Shown: positions 6,474 through 35,338 of the stretch, piece by piece
Layout of the letters: each line of letters begins with the position of its first letter
How positions within the stretch are numbered: position 1 is the stretch's first letter
Source: a virus
Length of the DNA: 37,228 nt
Virus record (IMG/VR): IMGVR_UViG_3300011115_000269
Coordinates: 1-37,228 of that record
Reading direction: 5' to 3' (one strand)
The notes under the pieces: generated by a model
Told to the model about the DNA's origin: nothing
The model's database searches: none
What the model saw: only the letters and a program-made list of their open reading frames with translations
Program-made: the position numbers and the translations under genes

Positions 6474-6935
6474 TTACTTTACCATTCGACACCAAGAAAT
6501 AAATAAGTCGTTCGGTAGGTCTTTCTTCATCATATTCAGTGTTTTATGCACAATCTGAATGTTCCAAACATGATAACCTTCTCGACTGTTAATACGGTCT
6601 ACAGACGCATCTAATCCAAACTCCAACGGAACCCCTGTAAACGCACACTTCTTCAGTTGCTTTATATACTGTGAGTAAATGTCTTCAATCGTTATAGTGA
6701 CTTCAATGTTGCGTTTCTTTGCTCCATTTTTTAAACGACTAAATACTTTACCGGGTACATCTTTATAGCCAGCCCAAGCAGGATTATCTTTTCCTTTTTT
6801 AGGTTCACGGTTTCTATTATTGTTAGCTGTTCGACATGAAGGACAAACAGACTCATTAGCCACTGCTTTTTCAAATGAGTATTTATTCGTATAGCTCAAT
6901 TCTTTTGAGCAGCAGCTACAGAGTCTGTTGTACAT
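6474..6935 (-). CDS. HNH endonuclease, homing-type
   Basis: A 153-aa protein. The N-terminus has a Cys pair set (CSCC and CPSCR) that probably binds zinc. The C-terminal half has the phage HNH pattern CAFTGVP, DASVDRINSREGYHVWNIQIVHK and a final NMMKKDL helix. It starts one base after the stop of the ribonucleotide reductase gene and is the last gene before the terminator. Reductase genes are frequent homing targets, so it is probably a free-standing mobile nuclease and not a phage function. Confidence 0.85.
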   Translation of the reverse strand: MYNRLCSCCSKELSYTNKYSFEKAVANESVCPSCRTANNNRNREPKKGKDNPAWAGYKDVPGKVFSRLKNGAKKRNIEVTITIEDIYSQYIKQLKKCAFTGVPLEFGLDASVDRINSREGYHVWNIQIVHKTLNMMKKDLPNDLFISWCRMVK

Positions 6936-13320: not shown

Positions 13321-13530
13321 CTACTGAATTGTACCGCCAAACTGCTCAAACACATCCATACCGTCTAATGTTCCGCTTTCGATAGCTTCATAAGCATCAG
13401 CTAATAACTCCAGCGTGTCATCAATCGTTACAGAAGTCCCTACTGAGTAAGTGTTATCTTCAAACAAAGTGATAACAACTTCTCCAACCTTTGTTAATTC
13501 TTTTCCGTCCATTAGGTTACTCACTTCCAT
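13321..13530 (-). CDS. Small acidic phage protein, unknown
   Basis: A 69-aa acidic protein with a beta-rich first half (GEVVITLFEDNTYSVGTSV) and a helical second half. The family was not recognised. ATG 13530 lies inside the last codons of the HNH gene upstream. ATG 13512 would give a 63-aa product (MDGKELTKV) and may be the original start if the HNH gene was inserted. Neither has a strong ribosome-binding site. Confidence 0.6.
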   Translation of the reverse strand: MEVSNLMDGKELTKVGEVVITLFEDNTYSVGTSVTIDDTLELLADAYEAIESGTLDGMDVFEQFGGTIQ

Positions 13531-13901
13531 TTTTTTAGATAATTCAATGCTGCTTCTACAGTTGATATACTATCCTGCAGTAAACCTAATGCTCGATTAC
13601 AGTTATGACAAAGTAAATCACGAACTTGACCAGTTTCATGGTCATGGTCAACCACCAAAGTTTCTGTGTGTCCGTTGTTTCCTATCACAAATCCGTCTGA
13701 ATAGCATATCATACATTTATGATTTTGCAAGGTCTTTTTCTCTTCGTATTGTGTTTCGGTAATACCATAATTTCGCTTGTAGTAGGAGTTCTTTCCTCGA
13801 CATTTCGATGAGCAGTACTTCTGTGACGGAGCTTCAGGAGTATATTCGACAGCACAGGTCGGACAACTTTTATTCCTAAAATATTCGTTAGGATATTTCA
13901 A
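13521..13901 (-). CDS. HNH / endonuclease-VII-type nuclease, downstream of polymerase
   Basis: A 126-aa protein. An N-terminal zinc knuckle (CPTCAVEYTPEAPSQKYCS, then SKC) is followed by CMIC and the endonuclease VII core LVVDHDHETGQVRDLLCHNC, then NRALGLLQD. This is the His-Asn-His and Cys-pair arrangement of the T4 endonuclease VII fold, widely used by phage homing nucleases. It overlaps the polymerase stop as ATGA. Together with the gene at 15516-15821 it brackets the polymerase gene. A homing role is inferred. Confidence 0.85.
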   Translation of the reverse strand: MKYPNEYFRNKSCPTCAVEYTPEAPSQKYCSSKCRGKNSYYKRNYGITETQYEEKKTLQNHKCMICYSDGFVIGNNGHTETLVVDHDHETGQVRDLLCHNCNRALGLLQDSISTVEAALNYLKKWK

Positions 13902-15550
13902 TGACTTTCACTCCAGTTATTACCAATATGGTACTCAGCGTCCATCGGACACCGTGTTTTCAAAACCACCCCCGCAGTCCTTGCCGCTTCGACACAGAGT
14001 TTTCCAACACGTTCAGCGTCGGCTTCCGCAACTTCAATCTGTATTTCATCGTGGACCCATGCAACAAGTCGATGAGATATTTTGCACCTGTTGAGCATCT
14101 TAGTTGTTTCGACAATCCACTGCTTAGATACGATTGCTCCAGCACCTTGTAGCAGGGTGTTGACCGCTGAATGTGCGGAACGAATGTTAAGTCTCCTGCC
14201 GTCAAGACCCGGAATTGACCCTTTTGCAGACAGCCTTTCAACCTTCTCACGAAGTTTCTTGAGTTTTGGCATTGCTTTGAGATACCGATTAATAACGGCT
14301 TGTCCTTCTTGCGGTGAACAACCAAGAATCTGACCAATTTTTGCGCCGCCCGCCCCGTAAAGAAATGCGAATCCAAAACGCTTTGCTTCGCCCCTTGTGG
14401 AAAGACCTGCCGCTTCCCTGTTTTTCTCATGGATGTCCCCTGATAATAAAGTATTAGTGTAATCGTCGTCCTGCATATAATGAGCTAAACAACGCAGTTC
14501 TAACTGAGCTAAGTCTACCCCGACTAGCTTGTTTCCTTTGTCAACAATCCACAACGCACGACATTCTTTGCCGTACACTGCGTCCATGTTAGGAACTTGT
14601 GCCATGTTAGGACTCATGTGTGTTGCTCTTCCGCTAATGGCTCCATTAGTGATAACACGACCGTGTACCCTTCCATCTTCTTTAACCGCTTCTAGCCACG
14701 ATTCTACCTGTGCTATCCGCTTCTGAAGCATTAGATACTCGGCGATGGCTTTCGCTTCGGGGAAGTCGAGACCTTCGAGTGTGGTTTCATCGACGATGAC
14801 GCTACCTTTTTCGGTGTGCTTCGTGGGCTTCCAGCCTTTTTCGATGAGCCTTTCGGCAATTTGCTTACGACTTCCGGGGTTGAAGGGTTCAACGATGTCC
14901 CGAAGAGGCTTGCCTGATGTCTTGTGGACTCTACCAGAAGTGACTTTGGCAGGAAATATGACCTGCATTTCAGTTTGAATAGTATCCAGCTTAGTTTTAA
15001 GTTCAGCCAAAAGCTGTAAAGCACCGACTTCATCAAGTTTAAATCCTGCTCTTTCTTGCTTCGTGATGATGGCTTGTACTTCGTGTTCGAGTTTGACACT
15101 TTCTTCCGAGAATTCATTTGTTTTTAACTCCTGTGTTAAATGTTGATACAACTTTGCTAAAACTTCTACATCGTTTACACAATATTCTATCATCTGCTCA
15201 AGAGTATGTGTTTTTAAATCAAAGTCGTTGAACTCAGTCTTCGGATATCCGAGTCTTTCTCCCCACGCTGCGAGACTGTGTCCGTTTTCTATCGACGGAT
15301 TTAGTAGTCTTGATATTACTAAGGTGTCCTTTACCTGTGACATCCGAATTTTCGTATTCCATAGCTTGTTCAACAGAGGAAAGTCGAACGCTATCCCTGA
15401 GTGAGCTACCAAAATATCGTCCTTTATATAGTCCCAAAATCCGCTTGGAGTTTTCCATACTTTTATCTCGTTTGTTTCGATATGTTTCGTCACACAACAC
15501 CATATCTTGTCGTGACTAAGTGTTGTTTCTATGTCCAGTGCTATTGTCAT
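13898..15550 (-). CDS. Family A DNA polymerase with 3'-5' exonuclease
   Basis: A 550-aa replicative polymerase, shorter than T7 gp5 (about 704 aa). The proofreading domain begins at once (ALDIETT, Asp6/Glu8; HSGIAFDFPLLN at about 49-60; YCVNDVEVL). The polymerase domain has motif A VGVDLAQLELR (Asp346), motif B RGEAKRFGFAFLYGAG (Arg386, Lys390, Phe394) and motif C VHDEIQIEV (His500-Asp501-Glu502). Phe394 is at the place of E. coli Pol I Phe762, a residue class reported mostly in lytic phages. The first 35 bases lie inside the upstream HNH gene and the stop overlaps the downstream HNH gene. Confidence 0.95.
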   Translation of the reverse strand: MTIALDIETTLSHDKIWCCVTKHIETNEIKVWKTPSGFWDYIKDDILVAHSGIAFDFPLLNKLWNTKIRMSQVKDTLVISRLLNPSIENGHSLAAWGERLGYPKTEFNDFDLKTHTLEQMIEYCVNDVEVLAKLYQHLTQELKTNEFSEESVKLEHEVQAIITKQERAGFKLDEVGALQLLAELKTKLDTIQTEMQVIFPAKVTSGRVHKTSGKPLRDIVEPFNPGSRKQIAERLIEKGWKPTKHTEKGSVIVDETTLEGLDFPEAKAIAEYLMLQKRIAQVESWLEAVKEDGRVHGRVITNGAISGRATHMSPNMAQVPNMDAVYGKECRALWIVDKGNKLVGVDLAQLELRCLAHYMQDDDYTNTLLSGDIHEKNREAAGLSTRGEAKRFGFAFLYGAGGAKIGQILGCSPQEGQAVINRYLKAMPKLKKLREKVERLSAKGSIPGLDGRRLNIRSAHSAVNTLLQGAGAIVSKQWIVETTKMLNRCKISHRLVAWVHDEIQIEVAEADAERVGKLCVEAARTAGVVLKTRCPMDAEYHIGNNWSESH

Positions 15551-15821
15551 TGATATACTCGATTGCCTTTTGTAATACTGCTATATTATCATTAAAAAAC
15601 CCAAGACCTGCATTACATTTATTACACAACAAACCACGATATTTTCCTGTTGTATGACAGTGGTCTACATGAAGTCGTTTGTGTGGCTGTTTGTCTTCGT
15701 GTTCTCCGCACAAGTAACAACTATACGCTTGTTTAATACGCTCTTGTTCATAAACTTCTGCACTAATACCCAAGTTACTGTTGGCTGACCATCTGTTGTA
15801 GTTGATGTTTTCATTTTTCAC
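15516..15821 (-). CDS. HNH / endonuclease-VII-type nuclease, upstream of polymerase
   Basis: A 101-aa protein. CYLCGEHED, then LHVDHCHTTGKYRGLLCNKC and NAGLGFFND form a complete endonuclease VII-type core. It starts at GTG 15821, overlapping the stop of the upstream small gene, and its last 11 codons overlap the polymerase start. The core is closely similar to those of 34919-35338 and 13521-13901, so these look like members of one mobile family within the same genome. Confidence 0.85.
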   Translation of the reverse strand: MKNENINYNRWSANSNLGISAEVYEQERIKQAYSCYLCGEHEDKQPHKRLHVDHCHTTGKYRGLLCNKCNAGLGFFNDNIAVLQKAIEYINDNSTGHRNNT

Positions 15822-19880: not shown

Positions 19881-20062
19881 TGACTCCACCATTGGTTTCT
19901 AGTTAATCGTTTGCATTGTTTAGCCACATCTGGCGGTAATACCTGTTTGTCAGTCGTGCAAGCATAGACATCACTACGCAAAGATAGCTCTACCGCTACG
20001 CTAGCGAAGTTATAAACCCCGATAGCTAGCAGACACGCTAGCGACACCTTAAAGAAGGGCAT
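19877..20062 (-). CDS. Small protein with N-terminal membrane segment, 61 aa
   Basis: MPFFKVSLACLLAIGVYNFA is a signal anchor or signal peptide. The rest is polar with two Cys (ACTTDKQVLPPDVAKQCKRL) that could form a disulfide outside the cytoplasm. It starts at ATG 20062 with GGAG six bases upstream. The function is unknown. Confidence 0.65.
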   Translation of the reverse strand: MPFFKVSLACLLAIGVYNFASVAVELSLRSDVYACTTDKQVLPPDVAKQCKRLTRNQWWSQ

Positions 20063-20312
20063 TGTCGCTCCATAGCAGTGATTTTCCGCCAGCACCAGCC
20101 ATGATTACTACTAACTCACCCTTTCTGATTCCGTGTGTCCGCTTGAACCCAACGCTGGTTGGGACAAGCGCCTCAGCGACCTTCTGAGCCACCCTATCAG
20201 CAATCATAGCGTCTAGGTCGTTGATTACACTCGCATAGCCGTACTGCTCGATTAAATCGACCATATCCGACAATGTAAAGTGATAAAACGCTTCCTTTTG
20301 TTGCTCTAGCAT
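20049..20312 (-). CDS. Small phage protein fused to a helicase P-loop fragment
   Basis: An 87-aa protein. Residues 1-50 are a soluble helical phage-type domain (LSDMVDLIEQYGYASVINDL). Residues 55-80 (GFKRTHGIRKGELVVIMAG, then AGGKSLL) closely resemble the Walker A region of the primase-helicase (LTYGIRKGELVMVTAGSGLG, then KSQFL) but lack one P-loop residue. The rest of the helicase is absent, so it cannot be an ATPase by itself. It looks like a partial duplication joined to another gene. The start has GGAGG six bases before ATG 20312. Confidence 0.7.
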   Translation of the reverse strand: MLEQQKEAFYHFTLSDMVDLIEQYGYASVINDLDAMIADRVAQKVAEALVPTSVGFKRTHGIRKGELVVIMAGAGGKSLLWSDNALL

Positions 20313-20372
20313 AAAAGCCTCCATTAAAATTAGACAATACACCATATAGGTCTAAATGTCTGTCGTTAAAAC

Positions 20373-20400
20373 ACAACATAAGTGTTGTTTTTTTACAACA
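20373..20400. promoter_or_regulatory. Triple-arm inverted repeat before the 87-aa gene
   Basis: The 193-base gap 20313-20505 holds ACAACA (20373-20378), TGTTGT (20383-20388) and ACAACA (20395-20400). The middle arm can pair with either flank. Arms two and three form a full member of the TGTTGT-N6-ACAACA family (20383-20400). Read leftward, the alternative hairpin is followed by GTTTT. It could be an operator or a weak switchable terminator. I see no strong promoter in the gap. Confidence 0.5.
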
Positions 20401-21050: not shown

Positions 21051-21088
21051 CCTATGAGCCAATAGAGCAATATTTCAGGCTTCATAGG
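21051..21088. repeat. Inverted repeat over the stop codon of the 50-aa gene
   Basis: CCTATGAGCC (21051-21060) pairs with GGCTTCATAGG (21078-21088), ten base pairs with one bulged T and a 17-base loop. There is no T-run after it on either strand, so it is not a typical intrinsic terminator. It may stabilise the 3' end of an mRNA. Confidence 0.55.
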
Positions 21089-21234
21089 TATGAGCAATCC
21101 ACAATTTTACCGCCATTACAGTAAAAACAAACCATCTGCCTACCATCAGGCAAAGTAATAATTTGACTAGGACAAGCCCAAACATTAGAAGTGTTGTATA
21201 AAAACAACAGTGTGATTAGTAGTAGTTTTTTCAT
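21082..21234 (-). CDS. Small exported Cys-rich protein or lipoprotein, 50 aa
   Basis: MKKLLLITLLFLYNTSNVWA is a signal peptide. It is followed directly by Cys21 (VWAC), which could be a lipobox or simply a signal peptidase I site before a disulfide protein with four Cys (CPSQIITLPDGRQMVC, CNGG, VDCSYL). Similar CPSQ...PDG small secreted proteins occur in other phages and have no known role. A cell-surface role such as superinfection exclusion would be speculation. It is coupled upstream by ATGA. Confidence 0.7.
   Translation of the reverse strand: MKKLLLITLLFLYNTSNVWACPSQIITLPDGRQMVCFYCNGGKIVDCSYL
21192..21209. promoter_or_regulatory. TGTTGT-N6-ACAACA palindrome (inside the 50-aa gene)
   Basis: A perfect 6-bp arm palindrome with spacer ATAAAA. 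This is the only copy inside a coding sequence (codons of LLFLYN in the signal peptide). Read rightward it is identical over 20 bases to the copy at 22858. Confidence 0.6.
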
Positions 21235-21407
21235 TTGTATTCCCCGTGTAAAAGGTGTTTAGCGATTTTATGCGCTCCAGCATCGTCATACATCTCATCC
21301 AATAATCTAGCATCTGCTAAGGCGCTTTTCCGTGTGGTGTGGAAGGTGATATAACGCTTACCAGCAAAACCATCAAAATAAACGCAATAAACATAGTTTT
21401 TTTTCAT
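21231..21407 (-). CDS. Small phage protein, 58 aa
   Basis: It starts MKKNYVYCVYFDGFAGKRYI and has a helical acidic C-terminal half (ADARLLDEMYDDAGAHKIAK). ATG 21407 and TGA 21231 both overlap neighbours as ATGA. The function is unknown. Confidence 0.68.
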   Translation of the reverse strand: MKKNYVYCVYFDGFAGKRYITFHTTRKSALADARLLDEMYDDAGAHKIAKHLLHGEYK

Positions 21408-21604
21408 TGTGCTAAATCCTCCGAAGTAATGTCATAAAGTTCTAAAAGTTTCTTAACCTTCGCCAATGCTCTTTTTTCTATTTCCCATACTGCTTGATGG
21501 CTAATGCCTAAATCGTTAGCGATTTCTTGATAGGTTGCACCTTCAGCGATTCTGCAAGCCTTACAAGTATAGTATGGGTCGCATTTACAAACTTTAGCGG
21601 TCAT
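21404..21604 (-). CDS. Sigma-70 region 4-like HTH protein
   Basis: A 66-aa protein. An N-terminal Cys cluster (CKCDPYYTCKAC) is followed by the helix-turn-helix TYQEIANDLGISHQAVWEIE and KRALAKVKKLL, the pattern of sigma region 4. It should bind DNA, possibly contacting host RNA polymerase. With no phage RNA polymerase, it is the best visible candidate for the regulator of phage promoters or palindromes. GGAGGG eight bases before ATG 21604 predicts strong translation. Confidence 0.8.
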   Translation of the reverse strand: MTAKVCKCDPYYTCKACRIAEGATYQEIANDLGISHQAVWEIEKRALAKVKKLLELYDITSEDLAQ

Positions 21605-22426: not shown

Positions 22427-22444
22427 TGTGGTATAAATACAACA
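22427..22444. promoter_or_regulatory. TGTGGT-N6-ACAACA palindrome-like site
   Basis: A family member with one mismatch in the left arm, spacer ATAAAT. It lies in the divergent region. Confidence 0.55.
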
Positions 22445-22506
22445 GTGTCTATCTGCTCTAATGTTAGCACCTACTAACTAAACCCCCTACCCTATCCCCT
22501 GTGATG

Positions 22507-22524
22507 TGTGGTGTAGATACAACA
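22507..22524. promoter_or_regulatory. TGTGGT-N6-ACAACA palindrome-like site
   Basis: It has the same variant left arm as the site at 22427, spacer GTAGAT. The two start 80 bases apart and share ATGTGTGGT. Confidence 0.55.
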
Positions 22525-22606
22525 CTAAGGCAAGGCAATATAGGTGCAACATAGCACCATATATGTGCCAATTTAGACGCTAGTTCCTTTGAAGTTGACT
22601 ATAAAG

Positions 22607-22624
22607 TGTTGTATAGAAACAACA
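22607..22624. promoter_or_regulatory. TGTTGT-N6-ACAACA palindrome
   Basis: Perfect arms, spacer ATAGAA. It is preceded by CTATAAAG as at 22858. A half site, TGTTGT, follows 40 bases on. Confidence 0.65.
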
Positions 22625-22857
22625 TAGGGGGGAGGGGATGTGACTGTGTTGTTAATATTGATGGAGCCTCTAACGCTTACAAAATAGTAAAAAAGGGACA
22701 TAGTCAATAAAACCTAAGCTGTTGATAATAAAGGACAATATAGTGCTTAAATGTTAGGCAATAAAGGAAGGAATCTGCACACCGTAGGGACAGTGTCGTA
22801 CACCACTGCGGAGACAACTCAGCCTATGGAGTCCCGCACAGGAACTGGTCTATAAAG

Positions 22858-22875
22858 TGTTGTATAAAAACAACA
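22858..22875. promoter_or_regulatory. TGTTGT-N6-ACAACA palindrome
   Basis: Perfect arms, spacer ATAAAA. It shares CTATAAAGTGTTGTATA with the site at 22607. TATAAA in the spacer could double as a -10 element. Confidence 0.65.
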
Positions 22876-22898
22876 GTATTGAAACTATATTTAACCTA

Positions 22899-22916
22899 TG
22901 TTGTAAAAAAACAACA
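22899..22916. promoter_or_regulatory. TGTTGT-N6-ACAACA palindrome
   Basis: Perfect arms, spacer AAAAAA. It starts 41 bases after the previous site and ends 18 bases before the candidate late promoter. Confidence 0.65.
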
Positions 22917-22934: not shown

Positions 22935-22963
22935 TTGACTTTTACACAAAAGTATGATATTGT
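22935..22963 (+). promoter_or_regulatory. Candidate rightward late promoter
   Basis: TTGACT, a 17-base spacer, then TATTGT. The -35 is good, the -10 weak. A better -10 (TATGAT at 22953) has too short a spacing. It would give a 5' leader of about 140 bases before the terminase small subunit. Confidence 0.4.
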
Positions 22964-23110: not shown

Positions 23111-23530
23111 TTGAGTAACGATGTTCCGATTGTCGAAAAAAAGAAACCGAAGCTAGGTCGTCCACAGAAAGCGGACATCCTTGCTAAGAAAAAAGGACAT
23201 AGGGAAACTCGTGGTCGTCCTGCAGGAGATGCTGCCCGCATAGCTGAGTTCAAGGCTCGTCTGTTAGGTACTAGCGGTGAGAAGATTATTAACACTCTCA
23301 TCTCTAAAGCATTAGACCCTGACGATAAGGACCAAGCTGCTTGTTTGAAGATGTGTATTGATAGGGTTCTACCGTTGTCAGCTTTTGATGCGTCTAAGAA
23401 CTCTGGCGGTACTCCAAGCATCAGTATCAATATCACAGGACTGACTGGCTCTGTAGCTGAGTCTACTCCGGTGATAGAGATGAACGATGCGGACGAGGTT
23501 CAGTTCAAGGAACTCGGCAATGAGAGTTGA
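23111..23530 (+). CDS. terS: Terminase small subunit (putative)
   Basis: A 139-aa protein directly before the large subunit. The N-terminus is basic and AT-hook-like (KKKPKLGRPQ, RETRGRPAGDAA), suited to DNA binding. A helical middle (RIAEFKARLLGTSG, LISKALDPDDKDQAACLKM) suggests oligomerisation. It would recognise the packaging site and load the large subunit. Translation starts at TTG 23111, with AAGGA at a suitable distance. No in-frame ATG is nearby. The identification rests mainly on position. Confidence 0.7.
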   Translation: MSNDVPIVEKKKPKLGRPQKADILAKKKGHRETRGRPAGDAARIAEFKARLLGTSGEKIINTLISKALDPDDKDQAACLKMCIDRVLPLSAFDASKNSGGTPSISINITGLTGSVAESTPVIEMNDADEVQFKELGNES

Positions 23531-28242: not shown

Positions 28243-28271
28243 TTGACAAACGCAGCAGTGTGTGGTAATAT
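28243..28271 (+). promoter_or_regulatory. Strong sigma-70-type promoter within the late unit
   Basis: A consensus TTGACA is separated by exactly 17 bases from TAATAT. The predicted start, near 28278, falls at the left edge of the TGTTGT-N6-ACAACA palindrome. It would drive the scaffold and capsid genes. Confidence 0.75.
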
Positions 28272-28279
28272 CAGCACAC

Positions 28280-28297
28280 TGTTGTAATTTTACAACA
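28280..28297. promoter_or_regulatory. TGTTGT-N6-ACAACA palindrome at promoter start
   Basis: The arms extend to eight bases with spacer TT (TGTTGTAA-TT-TTACAACA). It covers about +3 to +20 of the predicted transcript, so it could be an operator or a 5' mRNA hairpin. Confidence 0.65.
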
Positions 28298-28322: not shown

Positions 28323-28580
28323 ATGACACCAGAATTACAAGCATATTACGACAATCGTTTTAGTACGATGGCTACGCAGGGCTGGCAGGATTTAGTAGAC
28401 GATGCTAAGGAAATCTTTAAAGCGGTCAACAATCTTGCACCTGTAGCTAACGAGCAGGACCTGTTCTATCGAAAAGGACAACTTGACATCCTTCAGTGGT
28501 TGTTAAGCCTTAAAGATAGTTCTGCTGCAGCTTATGAGCAACTTATCAACGACTCTGCGGGAGCAGCTCAGGATGAGTAG
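28323..28580 (+). CDS. Small phage structural-region protein, 85 aa
   Basis: A helical protein (MTPELQAYYDNRFSTMATQG, GQLDILQWLLSLKDSSAAAY) of a kind often found just before scaffold genes. Function unknown. The leader CTCCCATTTAAAGGATAAAG before ATG 28323 closely resembles the leader of the terminase small subunit gene (23090-23107). It overlaps the HNH start. Confidence 0.7.
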   Translation: MTPELQAYYDNRFSTMATQGWQDLVDDAKEIFKAVNNLAPVANEQDLFYRKGQLDILQWLLSLKDSSAAAYEQLINDSAGAAQDE

Positions 28581-29052
28581 CAAACAATGCTCATGTTGTA
28601 AGGTAGAAAAAGATGTTTCTTTGTTTAGTAAGAACATTTCTCGCAAAGATGGTTTACATCCGTCTTGTAAAGAATGTAAAAACAAAGGAAATCTCAAGTA
28701 CCACCAAAACAACCGAGAAAAAGAAGTACAGTATTCTCGAAAATACTATCAGCAAATCGGGAGATTTGAAACTGATAAGCTGAGAGAAAGAGAAGCAAAA
28801 CGAAGAGCTAGTAAATTAAAAGCAACCCCTTCGTGGCTTTCTGAATCACAGTTATTAGCAATAAAGTGTAAATATTCTCTAGCGACAATGTTTACAAAAT
28901 GTAGTGAAGTGCCTTACGCTGTAGACCATATTGTTCCTTTAAGAGGTAAAACAGTATGTGGTCTTCATGTACCTTGGAACTTACAAGTTATCACAGTTGA
29001 AGAGAACTTGAAAAAAAGTAACAAGCTACAAGGAGATTTATCTTATGCCTAG
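28573..29052 (+). CDS. HNH endonuclease, homing-type
   Basis: A 159-aa protein. An N-terminal zinc module (CSCCKVEKDVSLFSKN, CKECKNKGN) and basic linker precede an HNH core (YAVDHIVPLRGKTVCGLHVP, WNLQVITVEENLKKSNK). ATG 28573 overlaps the stop of the 85-aa gene, and its tail contains the ribosome-binding site and ATG of the following gene. An insertion at a gene border is likely. Confidence 0.85.
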   Translation: MSSKQCSCCKVEKDVSLFSKNISRKDGLHPSCKECKNKGNLKYHQNNREKEVQYSRKYYQQIGRFETDKLREREAKRRASKLKATPSWLSESQLLAIKCKYSLATMFTKCSEVPYAVDHIVPLRGKTVCGLHVPWNLQVITVEENLKKSNKLQGDLSYA

Positions 29053-34225: not shown

Positions 34226-34243
34226 TGTTGCATTTTTACAACA
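34226..34243. promoter_or_regulatory. TGTTGC-N6-ACAACA palindrome-like site
   Basis: A family member with one mismatch in the left arm, spacer ATTTTT. It lies in the 56-base gap before the adaptor gene and overlaps the candidate -35 box. Confidence 0.55.
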
Positions 34244-34265: not shown

Positions 34266-34922
34266 ATGGCTGCTTATAACTTTTTACAACTGACGAACTC
34301 AGTTTTACGTAGATTGCGTGAAGCTGAGGTTACGTCCGTCAACGATAACGACTATGCTAAGCTCATAGCTACGTATATCAACGATTCTAAGCGTCAAGTA
34401 GAAGATGCCTATAACTGGAATTCTTTATCTGACACATTGTCTGCAACAACCACTGCTAATATTTTTAGCTATGTTCTGACCGGCTCAGGACAGCGTTTCC
34501 GTCTAATTGACATTATCAACGACAGCAGCAACATGATAATGCAAAACCGTACTACACGGTGGATGGACCAAGCCTTTTTAGTAAACGACCCTGCTAAAGG
34601 TCCTCCGATTTACTTCAACTTTAACGGAACAGATACTAACGGAGACACATTAGTCGACCTATATCCTATTCCTGACGGTGCTTATAATCTTCGCTTCAAC
34701 ATTATTAAACCACAAGTTGAGTTAGTAGCTGATGCTGATGTGCTTTATGTACCACATGAGCCTGTCATAATGGGTGCTTATGCTCGTGCCGTGGCTGAGC
34801 GTGGTGAAGATTCTGGAGTGACAAGCAACGAAGCCTATGCGTTGTATTTGACAAGCCTTGCTGACGCTATTGCGTTGGAAAGTGGTCGATATATTGAAGA
34901 ACAGGAATGGTTGGCAATTTGA
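34266..34922 (+). CDS. Head-tail adaptor / tail tubular protein A-like
   Basis: A 218-aa protein. The helical start (YNFLQLTNSVLRRLREAEVT, YINDSKRQVEDAYNWNSL) is followed by a beta-rich middle (RFRLIDIINDSSNMIMQNRT, DLYPIPDGAYNLRFNI) and a final helix. This is the layout of T7 gp11 / P22 gp4-type adaptors joining portal and nozzle. It is just upstream of the nozzle-like gene, with an HNH gene wedged between them. Confidence 0.78.
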   Translation: MAAYNFLQLTNSVLRRLREAEVTSVNDNDYAKLIATYINDSKRQVEDAYNWNSLSDTLSATTTANIFSYVLTGSGQRFRLIDIINDSSNMIMQNRTTRWMDQAFLVNDPAKGPPIYFNFNGTDTNGDTLVDLYPIPDGAYNLRFNIIKPQVELVADADVLYVPHEPVIMGAYARAVAERGEDSGVTSNEAYALYLTSLADAIALESGRYIEEQEWLAI

Positions 34923-35338
34923 GCAAACAATGTTCAAAATGTAAAGAAGTAAAATCTTTAAATTCTTTTCACAAAGATGAAAGAAATAAAGATAAGAAGC
35001 GGTCTAACTGCATAGCGTGTGACCGTGAAGCATCAAAAGTATGGAAAGAAAAGAATAAAAAGCATATTGCCGAATACAATAGTCACTATAAACGGGAATA
35101 TACTTACGGATTATCGAAACAAGCGTATTTAGAATTATTAGAAGCACAAGATAATAAATGTGCTATTTGCAACATAGACCAGTCGAAATTATCGAGAAAA
35201 TTAGTTGTAGACCATTGTCATACTTCTAATAAAGTTAGAGGATTACTCTGTTCTCACTGTAATGTTGGAATTGGAATGTTAAAAGAAAATGAAGACAATT
35301 TGATGGCTGCGATTCAATATCTGAAAGATAGCGTATGA
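34919..35338 (+). CDS. HNH / endonuclease-VII-type nuclease in the tail module
   Basis: A 139-aa protein. A zinc module (CSKCKEVKSLNSFHKD, CIACDREASKVW) precedes CAICNID and the endonuclease VII core LVVDHCHTSNKVRGLLCSHC. TTG 34919 overlaps the adaptor stop (TTGA) with AGGA about 12 bases before. ATG 34907 is possible but has no room for a ribosome-binding site. It ends in ATGA overlap with the nozzle gene. Probably a mobile homing nuclease. Confidence 0.83.
   Translation: MSKQCSKCKEVKSLNSFHKDERNKDKKRSNCIACDREASKVWKEKNKKHIAEYNSHYKREYTYGLSKQAYLELLEAQDNKCAICNIDQSKLSRKLVVDHCHTSNKVRGLLCSHCNVGIGMLKENEDNLMAAIQYLKDSV

Follow-up and report, generated by a model that had tools for sequence, protein, structure and literature searches.

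Mycobacteriophage L5 carries many stoperators over its genome, asymmetric 13-bp sites of one phage repressor, and TyrR, whose box is TGTAAA-N6-TTTACA, can activate or repress sigma70 promoters, depending on where it binds. In unrelated phages of Alphaproteobacteria, sites for the host response regulator CtrA cluster in a large intergenic region and at promoters, and binding and regulation have been shown by experiment (PMC9437464). In E. coli, UvrY binds the 18-nt palindrome TGTAAGNNNNNNCTTACA, and its site at csrB is centred at -183 (PMC4682653). Here we analyze a 37,228-nucleotide stretch of DNA from an uncultured phage (IMG/VR record IMGVR_UViG_3300011115_000269; the window), in which the 18-base palindrome TGTTGT-N6-ACAACA recurs. 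CtrA sites in phages are its nearest precedent and share its genomic signature, but its operator would be an 18-bp palindrome with a different regulator and a different host. The family may represent a CtrA-kind arrangement with a new operator. Its layout is that of the UvrY/SirA/GacA box (an 18-nt palindrome with six-base arms and spacer, TGT...ACA ends and a position upstream of promoters), but the arms are TGTTGT rather than TGTAAG and the centres lie at about -50 to -62 instead of -183 as at csrB. Sites of the window and of other phages fit TGTKGT-N6-ACMACA and do not meet the GacA/UvrY consensus TGTAAG-N6-CTTACA, from which they differ in the inner bases. The TyrR box matches the palindrome in arm and spacer lengths but not in arm sequence; the L5 stoperators are likewise many copies of one regulator site, whereas the palindrome is symmetric and common to unrelated phages.

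The window is laid out as a leftward early module with DNA polymerase A and a primase-helicase and a rightward late module that opens with a gene in the terS position (23111), followed by terL (23593). The repeated palindrome is real. Scored against 300 dinucleotide-preserving shuffles, the window holds 6 perfect copies where 0.013 are expected, 11 copies with at most one mismatch against 0.20 (the maximum in the 300 shuffles was 2), and 14 with at most two against 3.2. The 935-bp control region alone has 3 perfect copies (0.0007 expected) and 5 with at most one mismatch (0.004 expected). All nine palindromes of the original prediction were found where it had placed them, and six of them have perfect arms, as it had stated; its list overlooked two copies with at most one mismatch, at 20361 and 25820. 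It had counted eight of the nine as intergenic, but the site at 21192 falls within a 50-aa reading frame that is kept in relatives. The coordinates are collected in the table.

Table. Palindrome copies, promoters and associated genes in the window
Feature	Position	Strand	Remarks
Palindrome, 1 mismatch (TGTCGT..ACAACA), first of tandem pair	20361..20378	+	Perfect at same place in L086; pair centres 22 bp apart
Perfect palindrome, second of tandem pair	20383..20400	+	Upstream of leftward 98-aa gene (20049-20345); perfect in L086
Perfect palindrome within 50-aa frame 21082-21234 (minus)	21192..21209	+	Role uncertain; conserved in L086
66-aa sigma70-region-4-like HTH protein	21404..21604	-	Candidate ligand of the original prediction
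Cluster copy, 1 mismatch (TGTGGT..ACAACA)	22427..22444	+	
Cluster copy, 1 mismatch (TGTGGT..ACAACA)	22507..22524	+	
Perfect cluster copy abutting G-rich element	22607..22624	+	Copy most often kept in relatives
Perfect cluster copy	22858..22875	+	Window only; missing from aligned relatives
Perfect cluster copy	22899..22916	+	18 bp upstream of terS promoter -35; centre about -62
Sigma70-type promoter TTGACT-N17-TATTGT, extended -10	22935..22963	+	Serves small-terminase-like gene and late operon; conserved in L005-L009
139-aa gene, terS position	23111..23530	+	First of rightward operon
Palindrome copy, 1 mismatch	from 25820		Within coding frame; may be chance
Sigma70 promoter TTGACA-N17-TAATAT	28243..28271	+	Precedes 85-aa gene
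Perfect palindrome	28280..28297	+	About +3 to +20, at predicted start point of 85-aa-gene promoter
Palindrome, 1 mismatch (TGTTGC..ACAACA)	34226..34243	+	22 bp ahead of tail-protein gene 34266-34922

The control region holds further elements. What had been read as a half site at 22647 is part of a different, more widely conserved non-coding G-rich element (about 22625-22695), consisting of GGGGGGAGGGG and then GGAGCCTCTAAAGC-type sequence. Its conservation extends to 42 relatives, those that lack palindromes among them, and it is a candidate cos/pac site, origin or G-quadruplex element. Just upstream of it, where the clade of the window has palindromes, three relatives (L051, L062 and L075) carry DnaA-box-like repeats, TGTGGATAACTTGTGAGTAACTT. 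A GC-rich block at 22784-22845 (CACCGTAGGGAC...CCTATGGAGTCCCGCACAGG) contains inverted repeats and is nearly invariant in close relatives; it has no Rfam match, and an Rfam search of the control region returned nothing credible.

We compared the window with 80 relatives, loci of the same layout obtained from a terL search. Close relatives keep both the cluster and the 85-aa-gene site: clusters of 2-7 palindromes occupy the divergent region in the closest ones (L005-L009, L011, L015, L018, L019, L022 and L024), and in the alignment individual copies appear, disappear or change place, but the sequence of the site is preserved. More than 12 relatives retain the copy ahead of the 85-aa gene, just downstream of the TTGACA-N17-TAATAT promoter, and in L027 and L028 it overlaps the promoter -10. 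At the homologous terS promoter, the gap between site and -35 is 18 bp in the window, L005, L006 and L008 and 6 bp in L007, L009 and L010. More distant relatives from other sublineages (L036, L053, L062 and L077; L044, L057 and L060) keep the TTGACA promoter of the 85-aa-gene homologue with differing dyads in place of the palindrome, such as GTACT-ATAC-AGTAC or GCTAC...GTAGC, as though one operator had been swapped for another.

The palindrome extends well beyond these relatives. The pattern STGTKGTATARAWACAACAS occurs in at least 119 stretches of IMG/VR, compared to 9 for a permuted-arm control; in many of the contigs none of the window genes used as queries has a homologue, and some encode T4-like proteins (e.g. 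peptidase family phrog_459). In these phages the palindrome lies directly upstream of near-consensus sigma70 promoters, and among the matches listed a TTGAC promoter lies 0-25 bp past one end of 36 of the 104 distinct sites, compared to 0.9% of random positions. An independent scan settles this link: composites of the palindrome with an exact TTGACA-N16-18-TATAAT promoter were found in IMG/VR in at least 120 stretches at gaps of 5-7, 80 at gaps of 10-12 and 119 at gaps of 15-17, and a permuted palindrome with the same promoter at gaps of 5-7 gave 0. The 240 distinct composites among the matches listed most commonly have gaps of 6 (71), 10 (41) and 16 (40), counts that afford no fair comparison between gaps and in which contigs of one lineage are not independent; the promoter spacer is mostly 17. 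The corresponding palindrome centres are predicted at about -51, -56 and -61, positions where activators bind. Strict helical phasing, hinted at by the first 36 sites, lost support when the larger set revealed a gap-10 class. As with CtrA sites, several unrelated phage lineages carry the palindrome in excess and mainly at promoters. Over the distinct phage sites, arm position 4 reads T/T in 171, T/G in 62 and G/G in 0; the two half sites vary independently, as expected if a protein dimer reads them. A 32-nt query against cultured phages gave only 17-mer chance matches, in Listeria phages, and no account of the motif was found in the literature searched, a library with only a minority of subscription papers.

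Several explanations can be weighed against these data. Chance recurrence in AT-rich intergenic DNA would agree with the A/T-rich spacer, but the shuffles and the permuted-arm scans refute it and its probability is negligible. Six-base arms around a six-base loop could also pair, and the original prediction had entertained short mRNA hairpins, to which terminators may be added; we regard this as highly improbable because the T/G sites break the pair at position 4 and no compensatory change ever restores it, and most sites lie upstream of the promoter, hence outside its transcript. Iterons bound by an initiator at a replication origin, likewise proposed, would account for five copies in a large non-coding region beside the conserved G-rich element. 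This reading is not supported, because most copies elsewhere are single promoter sites and not tandem repeats in one replication region; copies in the window also spread to promoters, most other phages have one or few, and many relatives keep the G-rich element without palindromes. We consider origin iterons very unlikely.

More serious is the idea that the sites are operators of a phage-encoded regulator that silences or times early promoters and was spread to unrelated phages by exchange. Phage regulators typically have their operators clustered in a divergent control region, and other sublineages have different dyads at the 85-aa-gene promoter, as if each had its own. The original prediction had named as one candidate ligand the HTH protein at 21404-21604, which has cysteine motifs; no other HTH gene was recognised in the window. 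This protein is encoded by the window, L005, L086 and, in diverged form, L009. It is missing from the site-bearing L011, L014, L018, L022 and L028, and loci of a sister phage clade (L087-L095) encode 59-66% identical homologues and have no palindromes. Because some relatives bear sites without the gene and other loci bear homologues without sites, this double dissociation rules the protein out as a general ligand. In the leftward region next to the cluster, no gene cleanly tracks the sites among relatives, T4-like and small phages share the site with no shared regulators seen, and the upstream positions suit an activator better than a repressor. That the regulator is phage-encoded is probably wrong, since the site is common to unrelated phages, and we consider this explanation unlikely.

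Together the unpaired arm changes, promoter-linked positions, conservation and use by unrelated phages lend good support to the proposal that the palindromes are operators for a dimeric regulator, which probably works with the host sigma70 RNA polymerase. Bound at about -50 to -62, this regulator would activate the promoter, in the window the terS/late promoter via site 22899; bound at the start point, it would repress or delay the promoter, in the window via site 28280, which lies where repressors typically bind. The upstream and the start-point site could both be accounted for by a dual regulator. An activator should be almost superfluous at promoters whose hexamers match the consensus perfectly, which argues against that role. 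Several window copies (20383, 21192 and 22427-22607) are without a clear promoter at the expected distance, and the cluster copies other than 22899 may increase binding capacity or act on leftward promoters that are off consensus. The regulator would come from the host, given that the site recurs in unrelated phages and that no matching regulator gene is common to the relatives of the window. We tentatively propose, as a possibility somewhat short of even, that many unrelated phages, from small ones of 37 kb to T4-like ones, exploit one host activator found across a poorly cultured group of bacteria, via one palindrome before their sigma70 promoters. If so, a promoter code that did not appear in the cultured phages searched is common to hundreds of uncultured ones, and the signature would point to a host regulator that is read by infecting phages, like CtrA in Alphaproteobacteria. 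It would also mark the host group, help to assign hosts to orphan phage genomes and provide a short DNA bait for finding the protein.

We also searched for the palindrome in cellular genomes. Overall, exact sites occur at about chance level across bacterial genomes. The exact 20-mer pattern STGTKGTATARAWACAACAS gave 27 scattered matches in a bacterial and archaeal collection, one locus per genome, without linked promoters except one at 26 bp; in a sample of 399 Pseudomonadota genomes, 31 had a match with at most one mismatch and control matches were similar. Repeats in genome G588 were set aside, since they resemble copies of a single repeated element. The related pattern TGTTGY-N6-RCAACA occurs 394 times in 120 Methylophilaceae genomes, compared to 56 for the control, and is present in 118 of the 120. 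Of the intergenic copies examined, most are found 40-190 bp ahead of outer-membrane protein genes (porins, OprO/P, MlaA, OmpA, OmpW, TonB receptors and others); in these regions (L274-L347) the family-wide palindrome would mark an outer-membrane regulon that is apparently undescribed. Twice it stands ahead of a MerR-HTH/adenylate-cyclase gene.

NarL-type regulators are encoded in 12 of 12 streamlined Methylophilaceae genomes. The universal one has 212 aa, adjoins a sensor kinase and is closest to UvrY/SirA/GacA, the NCBIfam model for which scored best at 207 and 202 bits, below its cut-off of 280. Since it is universal in these genomes and the UvrY palindrome has the same layout, a GacA/NarL-type response regulator is a reasonable candidate for the ligand and the leading named one. 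The CRP family was rejected as the Methylophilaceae ligand, with no CRP-type HTH over the cut-off in the twelve streamlined genomes. In Methylophilaceae the half site of the phage type, TGTGG, exceeds its control only slightly (153 compared to 103), the composite of palindrome and consensus promoter is absent from 187 Methylophilaceae genomes, and the isolated Methylophilales phages Melnitz, MEP301 and MEP402 and the first 24 kb of MEP401 are without the site. This leaves two readings: a host from some other group whose regulator is related, or a partly coincidental resemblance to Methylophilaceae.

By eye, the window also encodes five HNH-like endonucleases (6474-6935, 13521-13901, 15516-15821, 28534-29052 and 34907-35338), and the HNH-like type of those at 13521 and 15516 is found between terS and terL in three relatives (L014, L041 and L060).
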